DNA of 33,025 nucleotides, from assembly GCA_949289995.1 (NCBI GenBank), contig CASEQE010000083.1, forward strand, positions 1-33,025. The letters run 5' to 3'. Numbering within the stretch: position 1 is the first letter of the stretch; every line of letters starts with the position of its first letter. This document shows, one piece after another, positions 11,920-31,934 of this stretch. The position numbers and the translations under genes are program-made. Source of the DNA: an uncultured Peptococcaceae bacterium (lineage in GTDB: Bacteria; Bacillota; Dehalobacteriia; UBA4068). The notes under the pieces were generated by a model. It worked only from the letters and a program-made list of their open reading frames with translations. It did not search any database and had not been told where the DNA came from.

Positions 11920-13122
11920 TTATTCCACCAGATCGGGATGAAAACTTTCCTGCCAGGGCAAGCCCCAAATATTTAGAGCATCCATAAACGGATCGGGGTC
12001 GAATTCTTCGATATTATAAACGCCGGGTTTACGCCACGTGCCGTTTAGCACCATCATAGCGCCGATCATTGCTGGTACGCCGGTGGTATAGGCCACAGCT
12101 TGAGAACCCACTTCCCGATAGCATTGCTGATGGTCGCATACGTTATATACATAGTAAGCTTTTTCTTGGCCGTCCTTTTTGCCCTGGATGATGCAGCCGA
12201 TATTGGTTTTGCCTTTGGTACGAGGTCCCAAAGAGGAAGGATCCGGCAATACCGCCTTGAGGAATTGTAGAGGTACGATTTTTTGCCCCTGAAAGTCGAT
12301 CGGCTCTATGCTGGTCATGCCAACGTTTTCCAGACATTTCAAATGGGTAAGATAGCTTTGACTAAAGGTCATAAAGAAACGGATTCTTTTGATACCGGGC
12401 ATATGCAAAGCCAGAGATTCCAGCTCCTCATGATGGAGCAAATACATATCTTTAGGGCCGATTTGGGGGAAATTATAAACCCGTTTGATTTCCATTGGCT
12501 CCGTTTCCCGCCATGCGCCGTCTTGCCAATAGCTGCCCTTGGCGGAAACCTCGCGAATATTGATTTCCGGATTAAAGTTGGTGGCGAAAGGATAGCCATG
12601 ATCGCCATCGTTGCAATCCAAAATATCAATATAGTTGATTTCGTCAAAATAATGCTTTAAGGCATAGGCGCAAAAAACGCCGGTAACGCCGGGATCGAAA
12701 CCGCTGCCCAGTAGTGCGGTAAGACCGGCCTGGGAAAAGCGTTCTTTATAAGCCCATTGCCATTTGTATTCAAATTTGGCCTCGTCTTCCGGTTCATAAT
12801 TGGCGGTGTCCACATAATGGGCGCCTGTAGTCAAACAGGCATCCATAATTTTCAAGTCTTGATAGGGCAGGGCCAGGTGTAATACCACTTGCGGTTGATA
12901 GGTTTCCATCAAGCGGATCAGCGCCGCCGTATCGTTGGCGTCTACCTGGGCGGTGGAAATCGTAGTGGCGGTATGATCCGCCAATTTTTCTTTTAGCGCG
13001 TCGCATTTGCTTTTGGTGCGGCTGGCGATACAGATATCGTCAAAAACGGCGCTGTTTTGACAGCATTTATGGATGGCAACGCTGGCCACGCCGCCGCAAC
13101 CAATGATTAAAGTTTTTCCCAT
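11920..13122 (-). CDS. Saccharopine-dehydrogenase-family protein, probable carboxy(nor)spermidine dehydrogenase
   Basis: Enzymes of this type condense aspartate semialdehyde with putrescine or diaminopropane and reduce the product with NADPH to carboxyspermidine or carboxynorspermidine. The 400-residue product begins with the nucleotide-binding motif IIGCGGVAS (about 6-14) and has the family signatures HLALPYQD, HYVDTANYE, LLGSGFDPGVTGVF and the closing DPFMDALNIWGLPW. I chose ATG 13122 because GGAGGA (13135-13130) lies 7 bases upstream. A TTG at 13140 in the same frame overlaps that site. It is the last gene of the polyamine operon. The partner decarboxylase (NspC type) is not in this window. 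A lysine-pathway role is the alternative but is less likely in this context. Confidence 0.85.
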   Translation of the reverse strand: MGKTLIIGCGGVASVAIHKCCQNSAVFDDICIASRTKSKCDALKEKLADHTATTISTAQVDANDTAALIRLMETYQPQVVLHLALPYQDLKIMDACLTTGAHYVDTANYEPEDEAKFEYKWQWAYKERFSQAGLTALLGSGFDPGVTGVFCAYALKHYFDEINYIDILDCNDGDHGYPFATNFNPEINIREVSAKGSYWQDGAWRETEPMEIKRVYNFPQIGPKDMYLLHHEELESLALHMPGIKRIRFFMTFSQSYLTHLKCLENVGMTSIEPIDFQGQKIVPLQFLKAVLPDPSSLGPRTKGKTNIGCIIQGKKDGQEKAYYVYNVCDHQQCYREVGSQAVAYTTGVPAMIGAMMVLNGTWRKPGVYNIEEFDPDPFMDALNIWGLPWQESFHPDLVE

Positions 13123-13145
13123 AATATATTCCTCCGGCAAATTTT

Positions 13146-14009
13146 TTACGGATTGATGTTAAGCGCCAACAGCAATTCCCGCAGCGCTTTACAGGCCGCC
13201 ATTACGGAAATGCCGCCGCTGTCATAGGGTGGGGATAATTCTGTCAAATCCGCGGCCACAATCCGAGCCTGTGCTGCTACTTGGCAAATTGCACCGGCTA
13301 ATTGTTGAAAACATACGCCTCCCGCTTCCGGCGTGCCGGTTCCGGGAAATACGGATGGATCCAATACATCCAAATCGCAGGTAAAATATACAGGTAGCCC
13401 TTTTAGGCGTTGTAACACCATATCCAGCCCCTGAAAATCTTGGGTTCTTATCCAGGTATGCCCGGCCTGGGCAAAACGGAATTCCTCCCGATCTCCAGAA
13501 CGAATGGCAAATTGGAAGATACGTCCATCGCCCAATAATTCCCAACAGCGCCGCAGTACGCATGCATGGGACAGAGTAACGCCTAAATATTCCTGACGCA
13601 AATCGGCATGGGCGTCGAAATGGATGATATGCAAATCCGGATAGCGACGGGCTGCCGCTTGAATCGCGGCCAAGGTGACCAGATGTTCCCCTCCCAATAA
13701 CACAGGTAGTTTTCCCTGGTGTAAAATGGTTTCTGTTGCGGTTTCGATAGCTGCCAAAGCGGCCGGTACATCGCCAAAGGGCAAGTCCAGATCACCGCTA
13801 TCGCAAACCCGCAGATCCAGCAAATCTTTGTCTTGTACAGGGCTATAGCTTTCGATACCCCAGGATTCGTTGCGTATGGCTTGGGGGCCGAAGCGGGCGC
13901 CGGGGCGATAGGAGGTGGTGCCATCAAACGGTGCCCCAAATAGAACTATATCGGCCTGATCAAAGGTTTTGTCGCAACCGATAAAACAATTGCTTACGCT
14001 ATTCAACAT
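13146..14009 (-). CDS. speB: Agmatinase (ureohydrolase family)
   Basis: It hydrolyses agmatine to putrescine and urea. The 287-residue product has the binuclear manganese site of the arginase/agmatinase family: GGEHLVT (His109), HFDAHADLR (Asp132, His134, Asp136) and CDLDVLDPS (Asp212, Asp214). It starts inside the last codons of speE (11-base overlap), so the two are translationally coupled. Its place between spermidine synthase and a carboxyspermidine-type dehydrogenase, downstream of an arginine-type decarboxylase, favours agmatine over arginine or guanidine substrates. Confidence 0.93.
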   Translation of the reverse strand: MLNSVSNCFIGCDKTFDQADIVLFGAPFDGTTSYRPGARFGPQAIRNESWGIESYSPVQDKDLLDLRVCDSGDLDLPFGDVPAALAAIETATETILHQGKLPVLLGGEHLVTLAAIQAAARRYPDLHIIHFDAHADLRQEYLGVTLSHACVLRRCWELLGDGRIFQFAIRSGDREEFRFAQAGHTWIRTQDFQGLDMVLQRLKGLPVYFTCDLDVLDPSVFPGTGTPEAGGVCFQQLAGAICQVAAQARIVAADLTELSPPYDSGGISVMAACKALRELLLALNINP

Positions 14010-14850
14010 CCCGTACCAACTCCTCTACATAGGCCGGCAAGGCGAATGCCCCCCGATGCACTTTGGTGGTATAGTATTTGGTTTGCAAATGCAATTGATT
14101 CCAGGCCTGATCATCCAAATCTTTTAAGGGATGATAGTGTTTAGATGCAAAGCCGAAGGTCCAATGCCCCGACGGATAGGTGGGAATATGGGCTTGATAG
14201 ATACGGCTGATGGGAAAGCTTTGGACGATACGTTTATGGGCTCTTTGCATAGCAATGGCATCGTCCTCATAATAGGGGCTTTCCTGTTGATTGACCATGA
14301 TGCCGTCGGATTTCAGAGCTTTGTAGCAGCTACCATAGAATTCTTTGGTAAACAGGTTTTCCCCCGGCCCGAAAGGATCCGTGGAATCGACGATAATCAA
14401 GTCGTATTCCTCTTCCTTGGCGCGGACATATTTTAATCCGTCTTCATAATGGATATGCACTCTGTTGTCGTCCAGGCCACAGGATACTTGGGGCAAATAT
14501 TTGCGGCAAACTTCTACTACCAATGGATCGATTTCCACTAGATCAATATGGGCGATACGGGGATAGCGTAGCAATTCCCGCACGGCGCCGCCGTCGCCGC
14601 CGCCAATTACCAAAACCCGGCGGATATTTTGATGTACCGCCATGGGTACATGGGAAATCATTTCGTGATAAATAAATTCGTCCTTTTCCGTTAGCATCAT
14701 CGCCCCATCCAAAGTCAGGAAGCAGCCGAATTGTTCCGATTGAAATACGTCGATACGCTGGTATTCGCTTTGTTGGCTGAACAATTGACGATTGACACGA
14801 ATGGAAAATTTGACGTTGGCGGTATGCATTTCCGAATACCACAATTCCAT
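13999..14850 (-). CDS. speE: Spermidine synthase (polyamine aminopropyltransferase)
   Basis: It transfers the aminopropyl group from decarboxylated S-adenosylmethionine to putrescine. The 283-residue product has the Rossmann motifs GGGDGG (83-88), VEID (105-108) and catalytic VDSTDPFGP (154-162), and the N-terminal beta-domain with QRIDVFQSEQFGCFLTLDG. It starts 97 bases after speA. That spacer holds a perfect GACAGTT hairpin (14929-14946) next to the speA stop, without a T run. It overlaps speB at its 3' end. The enzyme needs decarboxylated SAM, but no SAM decarboxylase gene is in this window. Confidence 0.95.
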   Translation of the reverse strand: MELWYSEMHTANVKFSIRVNRQLFSQQSEYQRIDVFQSEQFGCFLTLDGAMMLTEKDEFIYHEMISHVPMAVHQNIRRVLVIGGGDGGAVRELLRYPRIAHIDLVEIDPLVVEVCRKYLPQVSCGLDDNRVHIHYEDGLKYVRAKEEEYDLIIVDSTDPFGPGENLFTKEFYGSCYKALKSDGIMVNQQESPYYEDDAIAMQRAHKRIVQSFPISRIYQAHIPTYPSGHWTFGFASKHYHPLKDLDDQAWNQLHLQTKYYTTKVHRGAFALPAYVEELVRDVE

Positions 14851-14947
14851 AAGGCCGATTCCTTTCTGCCACAGCAGGCATTTGCTATAAAATCGTCAAA
14901 TAATCGGTTGTCATGTGGAGGGCTGGCGGACAGTTAAGAAACTGTCG

Positions 14948-16402
14948 TTAAGAATCGCGCAAAACGTTCAATCGGTTGATTTCCGGATCCTCCGGGCCGG
15001 TCATAGAACAACCTTTGGCTTTGGCGTAGCGAATATAGTCGAGAATTTCTCCGGTGATTTTTTCTCCCGGAGCCAAAATTGGTATGCCCGGCGGATAACA
15101 CATAACGAATTCGCTGCATACACGATTGATGGTTTCCGCCAACGGCAGGGAAACTTTTTCCGCATAAAACGCTTGTTGCGGCGTGGCCGTTACCAGCGGT
15201 TCAATATATTCTTGGCTTAACAAGCCGGTTTTATCCTTTTGATAGCGGCGACGAATTTCCGCCAGGGCGGACACCAGCCTTTCCACATCCTGCTTCCGGT
15301 CGCCGATGGATAAATAGGCGAGGATATTGCCTAAATCGCCAAATTCGATTTGAATATCGTATTCGTCCCGCAGCAAGTCGTATACTTCTATGCCAGCCAG
15401 GCCAATATCCAAGGTGTGTATGGAAAGTTTGGTTAAATCAAAATCGAAAACGCTGTCGCCGTTGAGCAAATCTTTTCCAAAGGCGTAGTAACCGGGAATG
15501 GTATTGATTTCATCCCGGGCGTATTGTGCCAAAGCGGCTACTTTGGCAAAGGTTTCCCGTCCACGCAGGGCCAGATTACGTCGGGAAATGTCCAGACTGG
15601 CCAAAAGCAGATAGGAAGCGCTGGTGGTTTGGGTGAGATTAATGATTTGTCCCACATAACCGGCGCTGACCTGTGGACCTGCTAGCAATATGGAGCTTTG
15701 GGTGAGGCTACCGCCGGATTTATGCATACTGATGGCGGCCATATCTGCTCCGGCTTTCATGGCGGCCAAAGGCATATCTGCGCCAAAATAAAAATGGGTA
15801 CCGTGAGCTTCATCCGCCAACAAAAGCATATTGTGTCTATGGGCCAATTGAACCAGACAGCGCAAATCGGAACAGATGCCGTAGTAGGTAGGATTATTCA
15901 CCAAAATGGCGGCGGCGTCGGGATGTTTGGCTACAGCCTGTTCCACCTGGCTCACACTCATGCCCAAAGAAATGCCTAAATTATGATCCACGCCGGGGTT
16001 TACGTATATAGGCGTGGCGCCGCATAATACCAAAGCATTGATTACGCTGCGATGTACATTGCGGGGAAGAATAATTTTGTCATGTTGTTTGCAGGCGGTC
16101 AACACCATGCTTTGCACTGCCGAAGTGGTACCGCCTACCATGAGAAAAGCAGCCTGTGCGCCAAAAGCGGCGGCGGTCAATTCTTCCGCTTCTTTGATTA
16201 CGGAAATTGGGTGGCAGAGATTATCCAGAGGTTTCATGGAATTGACGTCTACACCGACGCATTGTTCGCCCAAAAATCGACTTAGTTCCGGGTTGCCCCG
16301 TCCCCGTTTGTGGCCGGGCACATCAAAAGGAACTACTCGCATTTTGCGGAATTTCTCCAATGCCTCATAAAGCGGAGCCCGAGATTGGTCCAGATTCGTC
16401 AT
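14948..16402 (-). CDS. speA: Orn/Lys/Arg decarboxylase, probably arginine decarboxylase
   Basis: It is a PLP-dependent fold-I decarboxylase; with agmatinase in the same operon the substrate is most likely arginine, giving agmatine. The 484-residue product is the short Bacillus-type form without the N-terminal wing domain. Motifs: VPGHKRG (28-34), the PLP contacts DEAHGTH (197-203), the PLP lysine in SMHKSGGSLTQ (Lys228), and the C-terminal domain with CYPPGIPILAPGE. Lysine or ornithine activity cannot be excluded by reading. TAAGGAG precedes ATG 16402. It heads the polyamine operon and has a leader of about 110 bases with a large hairpin. Confidence 0.9.
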   Translation of the reverse strand: MTNLDQSRAPLYEALEKFRKMRVVPFDVPGHKRGRGNPELSRFLGEQCVGVDVNSMKPLDNLCHPISVIKEAEELTAAAFGAQAAFLMVGGTTSAVQSMVLTACKQHDKIILPRNVHRSVINALVLCGATPIYVNPGVDHNLGISLGMSVSQVEQAVAKHPDAAAILVNNPTYYGICSDLRCLVQLAHRHNMLLLADEAHGTHFYFGADMPLAAMKAGADMAAISMHKSGGSLTQSSILLAGPQVSAGYVGQIINLTQTTSASYLLLASLDISRRNLALRGRETFAKVAALAQYARDEINTIPGYYAFGKDLLNGDSVFDFDLTKLSIHTLDIGLAGIEVYDLLRDEYDIQIEFGDLGNILAYLSIGDRKQDVERLVSALAEIRRRYQKDKTGLLSQEYIEPLVTATPQQAFYAEKVSLPLAETINRVCSEFVMCYPPGIPILAPGEKITGEILDYIRYAKAKGCSMTGPEDPEINRLNVLRDS

Positions 16403-27830: not shown

Positions 27831-27932
27831 ACGATTCGTCCTCCGCATCATGGACGGCCGGTTTTTCCCGTGCAGGGGGGGCCGGCCAAAACTCGATCAA
27901 GCAGCTTTTGCGGGGATTGGGCAAATACCAAC

Positions 27933-28428
27933 CTACGCCCGCTTTTTTAGGAAACGGCGGGCCAGGTATGGTATGTTGCCGGTATATTCTTCCGGTATTT
28001 TTAACATACGCCTTATGAAACTGGCGGCTTCGTTCAAATCTTTCCGTGGTTGCCCAAAATCATGGCTCAGCTGCCGGTATTGCAAGCGATAGCAAATTTC
28101 CTGTAGCGGTGCGGCGATAAAACAGCCGTTATGACAAGAATAGCCCGGCCAGGAGGTATGTAGAAGTTCCGCCGCCTGCCGGCGCAAATGATCGACGGCT
28201 ACCGGACATGTATCTACCGCCACCACCTGACGGTAAAAACCGGCTAGATACAGGCTGGTTATCCCGGGGCCGCAACCGATATCCAAAACCGTATCCGTGG
28301 GCAGAATGTCTTGCCGTAAATATGGACCGAAGGGTTGATGGGGATAGTCCAGGACGGCGCAAGCCCGTTCATATTGTTCAATGGATTCCGCCGTCCAAAA
28401 GCATGTTTGTTGCCCAATATATGGACAC
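27933..28428 (-). pseudogene. Broken SAM-dependent methyltransferase gene
   Basis: The main frame encodes FWTAESIEQYERA, then DTVLDIGCGPGITSLYLAG and VVAVDTCP, the SAM-binding core of a class I methyltransferase, and ends with DFGQPRKDLNEAASF before a basic tail. It has no usable start in frame. The likely start is GTG 28428 (AAGGAG five bases upstream, TAGTG overlap with the previous gene), but that frame stops after 16 codons. Removing one T from the run TTTT (28397-28400) would join the frames and give MLWTAESIEQYERA, which looks like the proper N-terminus. The region after VDTCP also seems to lack about 80 residues of the usual fold. I read it as a pseudogene; a sequencing error could explain the frameshift but not the deletion. 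Confidence 0.65.
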
Positions 28429-29386: not shown

Positions 29387-30313
29387 TCAATAACTATCTC
29401 GTTTGCCCTGAATAGCGACAACTCGGCGTATGGTACGGATATTGGCCGGCGTATCTACGCCGTTTAATTCGCCGATACGCACGATACTTCCGTTAATCGC
29501 GCCAATTTCTGTAAAACGGCCCCGTTGTACATCGTTGAGCATAGAAGAACGATAGGCGGCGGAAGAACGGCAAGCATCCAAAACCGCAGCCCAGATTTCA
29601 CCATAATCCAACGGTACGCCGGCTTTTTGCGCTACTGTAACGCCTTCTACGGTTAATTCTACCATATCGCGGACAATATCGGGATCTTTGGGTAAAGCGC
29701 CGTTGTTGACTTTATGGATGGCGGATAAAGGGCCAAGCACGGAATCGATAATCAATTTTTTCCAACGTAGCGGCTCAATATCCGTAGTAGCGCCGGCGGG
29801 TAGATTGCAATTGTTAAACAATCGGGCTTGATCCATAGCTTGCTGCAAAGATTCTTTGAGCAGCGGCGCCACGATTGTTAAGCCGCTGGCGGTATGTTGG
29901 ATTTCGCCGGCAGATAATTCATAGCCGCTATGGTAGGTCATACCCAGGCAAATTTTATTTTTGGCAATGCGGCGGCATAGTTCTTCCTCGTTGCCCAACC
30001 CGTTTTGCAGGGAAACCACCATGGTTTTATCGCCTATCGTTTGGGCAATATCCCGGGCGGCTCTAGCGGTATGATATGCCTTTACCAAAACGATAAGCAA
30101 ATCCGCTGGCGGCGCTTCTTCCAGAGAAGGGTATACCGGAACCATAACGTGCTGGTCGTTACCATCCATTTCCCGAATGACGATCCCGTCCGTGCCGATT
30201 TTTTCCAGCTTTTGGCTATCGATATCGTAAAGGCCCACGTCTGCTCCGGCGTCTTTCATCTTCGCCGCAAAATAGCAACCCATGGAACCAGCGCCAATAA
30301 TGATCGTTTTCAT
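29387..30313 (-). CDS. panE: Ketopantoate-reductase-family protein, divergent PanE
   Basis: PanE reduces ketopantoate to pantoate with NADPH. The 308-residue product has the Rossmann motif IIGAGSMG (5-12), VSLQNGLGN and the C-terminal domain with RWKKL and SSMLNDVQRGRFTEIGAING. The catalytic lysine of RWKKL is kept. However, the usual Asn residues of the following helix (N-x3-N before PLTA in the E. coli enzyme) are Asp and Gly here (IIDSVLGPLSA), and TEID is TEIG. I chose ATG 30313: AAGGAG lies 10 bases upstream, and the longer frame to 30427 overlaps panB. It follows the panB-like gene by 28 bases. Its substrate may not be ketopantoate. Confidence 0.82.
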   Translation of the reverse strand: MKTIIIGAGSMGCYFAAKMKDAGADVGLYDIDSQKLEKIGTDGIVIREMDGNDQHVMVPVYPSLEEAPPADLLIVLVKAYHTARAARDIAQTIGDKTMVVSLQNGLGNEEELCRRIAKNKICLGMTYHSGYELSAGEIQHTASGLTIVAPLLKESLQQAMDQARLFNNCNLPAGATTDIEPLRWKKLIIDSVLGPLSAIHKVNNGALPKDPDIVRDMVELTVEGVTVAQKAGVPLDYGEIWAAVLDACRSSAAYRSSMLNDVQRGRFTEIGAINGSIVRIGELNGVDTPANIRTIRRVVAIQGKRDSY

Positions 30314-30341
30314 CCGTACCTTGCTCCTTTTGGCGGTTTTG

Positions 30342-31175
30342 TTAATAAAGTTTGCGGGCTTCGTCTTCTTCCATGGGGGAAGAGTGATGGTCTTGCGGAA
30401 AAGCGCCGCTTTTGACTTCTGCGGCAAAATTAGCTATGGCTTGACCAATCGTATTGGCTAAGTTGGCATATTGTTTGACATAATGAGGCGGTTGCTCCAA
30501 AGATATGCCTAACATTTGCTGATAATACAGCAGTTGTCCATCGCAATATCCGCCGGAACCGATGCCTATTACCGGAATATCCACTTTTTCGCTAATCAAT
30601 TTGCCCACTTCAGCCGTAGCCCATTCCAGCAATATAGCAAAAACGCCGGCCTCTTCTAAGGCTTGCGCCGCTTCAACCAATTGCCAAGCTGCGCTTTCAT
30701 CCCGACCTTGGGGCATATCTTCCTGCCACAGACAGGCGGTTTGAGGCAAACGGCCGATATGCCCCATCACCGGTATGCCTCGCCGGGTAAAAGCTGCCGC
30801 CAAAGGGGCGATTTCGCTGCCGCCTTCCAGCTTTACTCCGTCGGCGCCTTGTTGAATTAAAGTTAAGGCGTTTTTTAGCGCTTCTTCCGTATTGGATAGA
30901 TAGGAGCCGAAAGGCATGGCCGCCACCAGCATGGCTTGCTGACAGCCTCGATCCACCGCTTTCAAATGATGCAACATATCTTCCATGGTCACCGGGATTA
31001 CCGTTTCATATCCTAATACGGTAGGGCCCAAAATATCGCTGACCAGGATAATATCCACGCCGGCTCGATCCGCCAAAACGGCAGAGGGATAATCGTGGGC
31101 GGTTAACATCACCAGTTTTTCTCCAGCCAACATTTTCCGGTTTAAATCGGCAATGCCGGTTTTGGTTTTTAACAT
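30342..31175 (-). CDS. panB: PanB-like hydroxymethyltransferase with altered active site
   Basis: PanB adds a hydroxymethyl group from methylene-tetrahydrofolate to 2-oxoisovalerate to give ketopantoate. The 277-residue product is clearly of this TIM-barrel family: TAHDYPSA (25-32), LGYETVIPVTMEDMLHH, MPFGSYLS, GVKLEGG (Lys115, Glu117), MGHIG (His139) and IGIGSGGYCDGQLL. Of the magnesium ligands, Asp47 and Glu117 are kept, but the Asp before MPFGSY is Ala86. GDSLG is SDILG, and the segment after the catalytic Glu184 is LEWATAEV rather than LECVP. ATG 31175 has AAGGAG upstream. It pairs with the divergent panE; panC and panD are not present. Function may differ from pantothenate synthesis. Confidence 0.82.
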   Translation of the reverse strand: MLKTKTGIADLNRKMLAGEKLVMLTAHDYPSAVLADRAGVDIILVSDILGPTVLGYETVIPVTMEDMLHHLKAVDRGCQQAMLVAAMPFGSYLSNTEEALKNALTLIQQGADGVKLEGGSEIAPLAAAFTRRGIPVMGHIGRLPQTACLWQEDMPQGRDESAAWQLVEAAQALEEAGVFAILLEWATAEVGKLISEKVDIPVIGIGSGGYCDGQLLYYQQMLGISLEQPPHYVKQYANLANTIGQAIANFAAEVKSGAFPQDHHSSPMEEDEARKLY

Positions 31176-31253
31176 ATTTGCAACTCCTTTTATTTGGCTG
31201 CAGCGTTTAGGGGCGCCGGCGGCTCCCCGTGGCCGCTCGGCCAAGCAAAACGG

Positions 31254-31934
31254 CTATCTTTGCCGGATTTCCACTTGACCTTTTTTGCAGCATTTATCTC
31301 CTTCGTAGCAAATCCCCTGACTTTCGCAGGTAGGACCGGCCTGGGCAAATAAGGCGGGCGCAGCTTTTTGCGCCTCTTGCCGCATTAGATGGGCCATGTG
31401 CCGGATTTCCCATTGCGCCCGGTTGCAACAACGCAACTGGAAAAAGTTTAACAGACTGCGGGCGTTCATGGTCATGATCAAATTGGTAGCGGTGGCGTTG
31501 GGCAAAATATAACGAGCATCTTCCGCCGCTATCCCTTGATCCAGAAAATGGCGGTATAATGCATCAATTTTATCCATCAGCTGCCGGTATTCTTGCTCCG
31601 CCTGTGGGGAACGGCTAATACTGGGCGGAACGATATAGGAAAAGTGGTTTTCCTTTACATATCTTTGGGATTTTTGACTATAAGAGGCCAGTCGGTGCCG
31701 AACCAACTGATGGGAGAGGGCGCGGCTGACCCCATCGATGGCAAAGGTAAAGGAAGCGTGTTCAAAAGGGGAAAAGTGGCCCATTTGCCGCAAACGGCTG
31801 ATGAAAGCCGCTGCATCTTGTTGCTGAAAAGCGGCGGCGATTTCTTCGCCGCTTTGGGAGGAATAACATAAGCGGGCGGCGGCGGCTACCACTTGTTCCG
31901 GATTGGGCGTATGGGTTAACAATTGTACGTGCAT
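31254..31934 (-). CDS. thyX: Flavin-dependent thymidylate synthase
   Basis: ThyX makes dTMP from dUMP using FAD, NADPH and methylene-tetrahydrofolate. The 226-residue product has the ThyX motif RHRLASYSQKSQR (79-91), HFSPFEHASFTF (53-64) and the dUMP-binding region NARSLLNFFQLRCCNRAQWEIR. The C-terminal tail carries five cysteines (CESQGICYEGDKCCKKG), as in several Firmicutes ThyX proteins. I chose ATG 31934 with GAGG upstream; the frame to 32018 runs into mrnC. It follows mrnC by 17 bases. The 78-base spacer to panB has GC-rich small hairpins. Confidence 0.95.
   Translation of the reverse strand: MHVQLLTHTPNPEQVVAAAARLCYSSQSGEEIAAAFQQQDAAAFISRLRQMGHFSPFEHASFTFAIDGVSRALSHQLVRHRLASYSQKSQRYVKENHFSYIVPPSISRSPQAEQEYRQLMDKIDALYRHFLDQGIAAEDARYILPNATATNLIMTMNARSLLNFFQLRCCNRAQWEIRHMAHLMRQEAQKAAPALFAQAGPTCESQGICYEGDKCCKKGQVEIRQR

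Follow-up and report, generated by a model that had tools for sequence, protein, structure and literature searches.

The panB-panE pair and its locus

The window, as we refer to the whole stretch of 33,025 nucleotides analysed here, represents one contig (C83) of an 84-contig draft genome of 1.83 Mb that is 92% complete. On its minus strand, cysS, mrnC, thyX, panB, panE, a HAD hydrolase gene, a broken methyltransferase gene, addB and addA follow each other in this order (Table 1). Profile searches confirmed the preliminary description of the adjacent genes at 29387-31175 as members of the PanB and PanE families: the first product matches PF02548 end to end (301 bits, cut-off 28.7) and scores 268 bits with TIGR00222, above the equivalog cut-off of 207.6, and the second matches PF02558/PF08546 and TIGR00745 end to end (243 bits with TIGR00745, cut-off 141). 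The stop codon of panB is separated from the start of panE by 28 bases. The product of thyX, the gene preceding the pair, is another 5,10-methylene-THF enzyme.

Table 1. Genes, ribosome-binding sites and altered codons of the panB-panE locus (positions in the window)
Feature	Position	Strand	Remark
thyX, upstream gene	31254..31934	-	between mrnC and panB in the genus of the window
panB ribosome-binding site AAGGAG	31184..31189	-	sequence reading
panB-family gene	30342..31175	-	277 aa, ATG at 31175; sole PF02548 match in the genome
codon His27 (E. coli Tyr25)	31095..31097	-	alignment
codon Ile48 (E. coli Ser46)	31032..31034	-	Ser or Thr in all other PanBs
codon Ala86 (E. coli Asp84, predicted metal ligand)	30918..30920	-	Asp in 124/124 other PanBs
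codon Arg142 (E. coli Leu139)	30750..30752	-	Arg solely in four Asp84-less PanBs
rewritten loop Gln151-Glu152-Asp153, replacing conserved Gly148-Gly149-Tyr150	30717..30725	-	adjoins low-confidence part of the model
codon Gln220 (E. coli Asp217)	30516..30518	-	Asp in 124/124 others; Gln in all four Asp84-less PanBs
panE ribosome-binding site AAGGAG	30324..30329	-	sequence reading
panE-family gene	29387..30313	-	308 aa, ATG at 30313; sole PF08546 match in the genome
codon Asp190 (E. coli Asn180)	29744..29746	-	common to the sister species
codon Gly194 (E. coli Asn184, substrate carboxylate contact)	29732..29734	-	Asn in the sister species
codon Tyr254 (E. coli Asn241, substrate 4-OH contact)	29552..29554	-	His in the sister species

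The locus is common to the window and its canonical relatives. In genus g2 (G002, G014 and G018), whose members carry a canonical PanB together with panC, the order is cysS-mrnC-panB-panE, so that the pair of the window represents an inherited, native family locus. The placement of thyX between mrnC and panB was seen in the genus of the window and in none of the other genera read. In G011 and G017, which belong to a second genus, panB apparently follows mrnC directly and is not accompanied by panE, and in G007 panE without panB occupies apparently the same place after mrnC; the mrnC remnants, out of frame upstream of panB in the former two genomes, were assigned by eye in all three. The PanE of G007 (L071, G007:C4, 365-1486) is the closest to that of the window outside its genus (62%) and has Asn180, Asn184 and Asn241; panB, panC and panD were not found in this genome, whose PanE is kept. 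None of the neighbouring genes was identified as specific to the remodelled type of PanB described below, and the HAD phosphatase, considered as a dedicated third step, was dropped, as its gene is widespread across the family.

Just past the next gene downstream of the intact panB-panE pair, a SAM-dependent methyltransferase gene (27841-28412, minus strand) is broken: at a repeated LRRQAAEL-like motif it lacks approximately 46-60 internal residues, and a frameshift occurs close to its end. In the sister species it is intact (263 aa, L058:10241-11032). Hence, the genome of the window does shed unneeded genes.

Kept and changed residues of the two proteins

The PanB-family protein of the window shares with canonical PanB (ketopantoate hydroxymethyltransferase; E. 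coli 1m3u, M. tuberculosis 1oy0) its fold and the residues Asp45, Lys112, Glu114, His136 and Glu181 (E. coli numbering is used throughout the text), the catalytic Glu181, Lys112 and His136 being among them. Its AlphaFold2 model (pLDDT 93.7, with residues 141-150 of low confidence, pLDDT 68) had 1oy0 as the best PDB match, with TM-scores of 0.86 and 0.96 when normalised to the query and the target length, respectively, at 38% identity, and the top solved matches were all PanBs. Enzymes of the PEP mutase/isocitrate lyase superfamily, such as 2-methylisocitrate lyase and phosphonopyruvate hydrolase, are distant fold relatives (TM-score about 0.6, 11-16% identity), but the sequence gives no grounds for placing the protein in those families.

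Asp45, Asp84 and Glu114 we take, from the E. coli structure, to be the metal ligands of PanB, and Glu181 its catalytic base. This triad is incomplete in the window: the Asp preceding MPFGSY, at position 84, is replaced by Ala (AAMPFGSY), as the preliminary description had observed. Of the three magnesium ligands that it listed, Asp45 and Glu114 are present, and Asp84 is the only changed one. SDILG does stand in place of GDSLG but leaves Asp45 in position, the changes being Gly44 to Ser and Ser46 to Ile. Similarly, LEWAT is found for LECVP but does not amount to a loss, as Glu181 is kept and the other PanBs themselves have Cys182 in only 77 of 124 cases and Pro184 in 94. Further departures from the canonical protein that had escaped attention are Tyr25 to His, Thr57 to Val, Leu139 to Arg and Asp217 to Gln; the loop 148-153 is rewritten as well. 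Of 31 nearly invariant PanB columns, 6 differ here, whereas other PanBs differ on average at 0.2 of them. Enol formation by PanB requires a metal (PMC7770189), and a literature search returned no paper on Asp84 or Asp45 of PanB. As one of the tested hallmarks, Asp84, is missing, we would not call the protein a PanB but, going by its sequence, a member of the PanB family with an altered or unassigned activity.

PanE resembles ketopantoate reductase (KPR; E. coli 1ks9, closest solved sequence 5hws) along the entire profile, contains the cofactor motif GxGxxG and keeps Asn98, Lys176, Asn194, Ser244 and Glu256, of which Lys176 and Glu256 are catalytic (AlphaFold2 model, pLDDT 92.9). Within the contact set around residues 98, 180, 184, 194, 241 and 244, in which we include Asn180 as a presumed substrate contact, Asn98, Asn194 and Ser244 are kept and Asn180, Asn184 and Asn241 are changed. 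The Asp and Gly reported earlier in place of two Asn residues are indeed found at positions 180 and 184; Asn180 to Asp is common to both species of the genus, but Asn184 to Gly is private to the species of the window, its sister having retained Asn184. The overlooked change of Asn241 (Tyr here, His in the sister species) is likewise a loss common to the genus. In E. coli PanE the substrate contacts include residues 98, 184, 194, 241 and 244, Asn184 and Ser244 holding the substrate carboxylate and Asn194 and Asn241 the 4-hydroxyl (PMC10127515). TEIG for TEID, also correctly read, is private to the genome of the window and carries little weight, because the sister species has TEIE, a reading often met among close relatives and in the family.

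PanE departs from the canonical enzyme less than PanB does, its changes being milder and partly species-private. The earlier view of matching losses in both active sites, although correct in that one of three predicted metal ligands of PanB and two or three contacts of PanE are changed, was therefore overstated. Moreover, the two active sites need not change together, since the second genus has a remodelled PanB and no PanE was found in it.

Distribution of the Asp84-less PanB, pantothenate genes and selection

Our comparison set comprised 124 other PanBs of bacteria and archaea, and Asp84 is invariant in all of them. Only four proteins lack it: Ala takes its place in the species of the window and in the sister species, G001, and Gly does so in G011 and G017, two species of the second genus of the family. 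Arg139 is confined to the same four proteins, other PanBs having one of Leu, Met, Phe, Val and Ile there, as is Gln217, and the conserved Gly148-Gly149-Tyr150 loop is missing from each of the four. The unusual PanB residues are identical between the species of the window and its sister. Chance or sequencing error as the source of the substitutions is excluded, because two independently assembled species share them at a synonymous divergence of about 0.9 and because other aligned PanBs almost never vary at these columns. A DNA pattern for [A/G/S/T/R]-M-P-[F/Y]-G-x-Y, run against 399 genomes of the phylum and, in a narrower form, against 43 genomes of the class, returned the four known Asp84-less PanBs and no other, within the spellings that the pattern can see (Leu for Met, for example, would escape it); the eight remaining matches were not PanB.

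In the full-alignment tree the Asp84-less PanBs formed one clade with moderate support (87/84). The clade disappeared without the signature columns, and enforcing the grouping gave a p-AU of 0.15; in the rpoB tree, weak in this part, the two genera did not stand together. As the grouping depends on the signature columns, one origin and two parallel origins of the remodelled PanB are both possible on these alignments.

Additional PanB copies were observed elsewhere in the class. G006 has two (L059, G006:C60, 7484-8320, and L068, G006:C89), one of them canonical, located beside panC and panD and grouping with another family of the class, and the other a divergent native-type copy with His25 that has kept Asp84. 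G041, a single contig of 6.4 Mb with a listed contamination of 10%, carries eight PanB-family genes.

The genome of the window and the sister species (92% and 95% complete) carry one copy each of panB and panE, and profile searches for a duplicate canonical panB or panE elsewhere in the genome, as had been recommended, revealed none. The reported lack of panC and panD near the pair was confirmed and extends to the entire assembly: neither gene was found by profile searches of the drafts of these two species, nor in G011 and G017 (83% and 84% complete). The panC gene is present in 0 of 4 Asp84-less genomes versus 17 of 17 tested genomes with an Asp84 PanB (Fisher p 1.7e-4, a value that ignores relatedness and treats as four genomes what amounts to one or two events). 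Either gene could be hidden in the drafts or replaced by unrelated enzymes. Phosphopantothenate synthetase (PPS, PF02006), considered as an archaeal route from pantoate, was not found. The pantothenate kinase CoaX was detected in all ten genomes checked (in that of the window only its first stretch, at an apparent contig end), so imported pantothenate could be used, which fits salvage. Both species of the genus carry ilvD, so that ketoisovalerate could still be made; the gene was not found in G011 and G017. Partial loss of the pathway is common in the family, where one genome has panE only, two have panB only and several have none of the genes. G008, 98% complete, has panC without panB or panD and is a near mirror image of the genome of the window.

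Both genes are under strong purifying selection and are not decaying. Between the species of the window and its sister, dN/dS was 0.069 for panB (bootstrap range 0.042-0.106) and 0.069 for panE (0.043-0.104), comparable with thyX (0.070) and cysS (0.052) and lower than in the HAD gene (0.134), these ratios being approximate at a synonymous divergence as high as about 0.9-1.1. The frames of panB and panE are open in both species, and the two PanBs of the second genus gave a dN/dS of 0.105. Decay is rejected by the low ratios and the open frames; which activity the selection preserves, dN/dS does not indicate.

Possible roles of the retained pair

On balance, it seems somewhat probable that, after the end of the pathway had been lost, the native, vertically inherited PanB, in the window together with PanE, persisted and was reshaped for some role outside pantothenate synthesis. 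With the loss of panC and panD the organism would have come to depend on imported pantothenate while the panB-panE locus was retained. In the (beta-alpha)8 barrel of PanB, Glu181 would act as the base forming the enolate of a 2-oxo acid or a similar carboxylate, to which a one-carbon or aldehyde unit would be added (or from which it would be removed); the substrate might be held differently, with fewer metal ligands in the absence of Asp84 and with changed residues including Arg139, Gln217 and the new 148-153 loop. In the genus of the window, NAD(P)H-dependent reduction of the resulting 2-oxo compound by PanE may follow, and the altered residues 180 and 241 of PanE would suit a product other than ketopantoate. 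This chemistry is proposed because the catalytic residues are kept and because the E. coli enzymes PanB and PanE, working one after the other in vitro, also convert other 2-oxo acids when formaldehyde is supplied (PMC10127515). As the second genus has PanB without PanE, a scheme of two steps cannot hold for every case.

We prefer a retained pair with a new task over decay or plain pantoate synthesis because the catalytic base and acid are kept, the pocket is changed, the pathway end is gone and the constraint is strong. The earlier proposal of kept chemistry on a changed substrate survives in this form, fitting sole copies under purifying selection without panC and panD better than decay does, but not as a case of paired losses. 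Counting against an altered activity are the presence of ilvD and the result that the analysis yielded no substrate, product or partner gene. Possible, though rather doubtful, is the more specific proposal of a new PanB subfamily, marked by the lack of Asp84, by Arg139, Gln217 and the changed 148-153 loop, in which the metal site would be partly replaced by other groups and a new carbon-carbon bond reaction would proceed on another carboxylate, having arisen once or twice upon loss of pantothenate synthesis, with a retuned PanE in one genus.

Vitamin pathway enzymes normally disappear together or remain because the vitamin is needed. In this case the gene is as constrained as its housekeeping neighbours, yet its product has lost an active-site residue that is invariant elsewhere, and this was seen only in genomes missing the pathway end. 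The protein passes the equivalog cut-off; a new activity would mean that its automated annotation as PanB/PanE is wrong, and with it the predicted pantoate production in such organisms. Canonical, remodelled and lost states occur side by side within one bacterial family, a compact example of how a pathway remnant may be reused. Partial pathways in which some pantothenate genes outlast others have been described for gut bacteria, where PanC occurs with or without PanD and without PanB and the auxotroph variants keep PanC for pantoate salvage (PMC6593275), and for Buchnera, which keeps panB and panC (PMC4306246); unlike the window, the variants listed in the portions of these papers available to us include none with PanB and PanE but no PanC. 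A literature search returned no case of a remodelled PanB that accompanies missing panC and panD.

It appears unlikely that the pair still makes pantoate, either for neighbours possessing PanC but lacking PanB or for a substitute of PanC, with the altered residues being tolerated. The catalytic residues and the panB-panE order are kept under selection, ilvD would make ketoisovalerate available, G008 demonstrates within the same family a genome with panC and no panB, and gut genomes with panC and panD are inferred to salvage pantoate (PMC6593275). However, the loss of the predicted metal ligand Asp84, otherwise invariant, along with changes of Ser46, Asp217 and the 148-153 loop, far exceeds what PanBs usually show, selection in favour of feeding neighbours would not persist easily, and the genome has yielded no PPS. 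A weakened pantothenate activity, the other option raised in the preliminary description, is likewise an unlikely reason for retention, because no known pantoate-using enzyme, neither PanC nor PPS, was found.

Less probable still is that PanB is kept for a folate side activity, for example one that cleaves or buffers 5,10-methylene-THF, or for a structural role, with PanE performing an unrelated reduction. The location of thyX directly upstream and the occurrence of PanB without PanE in the second genus and of PanE without PanB in another would agree with it, and a folate-cleaving side activity of E. coli PanB has been reported (PMC4814558). Such a role leaves the remodelling of the substrate and metal pocket in particular unexplained, and thyX does not occupy this position in the other genera read. 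A remnant of a dying pathway, whose enzymes are losing function after panC and panD, is very improbable: although partial losses are common in the family, the low dN/dS of both genes and of the second-genus PanBs, the open frames and the conservation of the odd PanB residues between species already contradict it for the period since the two species split.

Elsewhere in the window, at 11920-16402 on the minus strand, lies a polyamine-type run of genes for an Orn/Lys/Arg decarboxylase, spermidine synthase, a member of the arginase/agmatinase family and a saccharopine (carboxynorspermidine-type) dehydrogenase.
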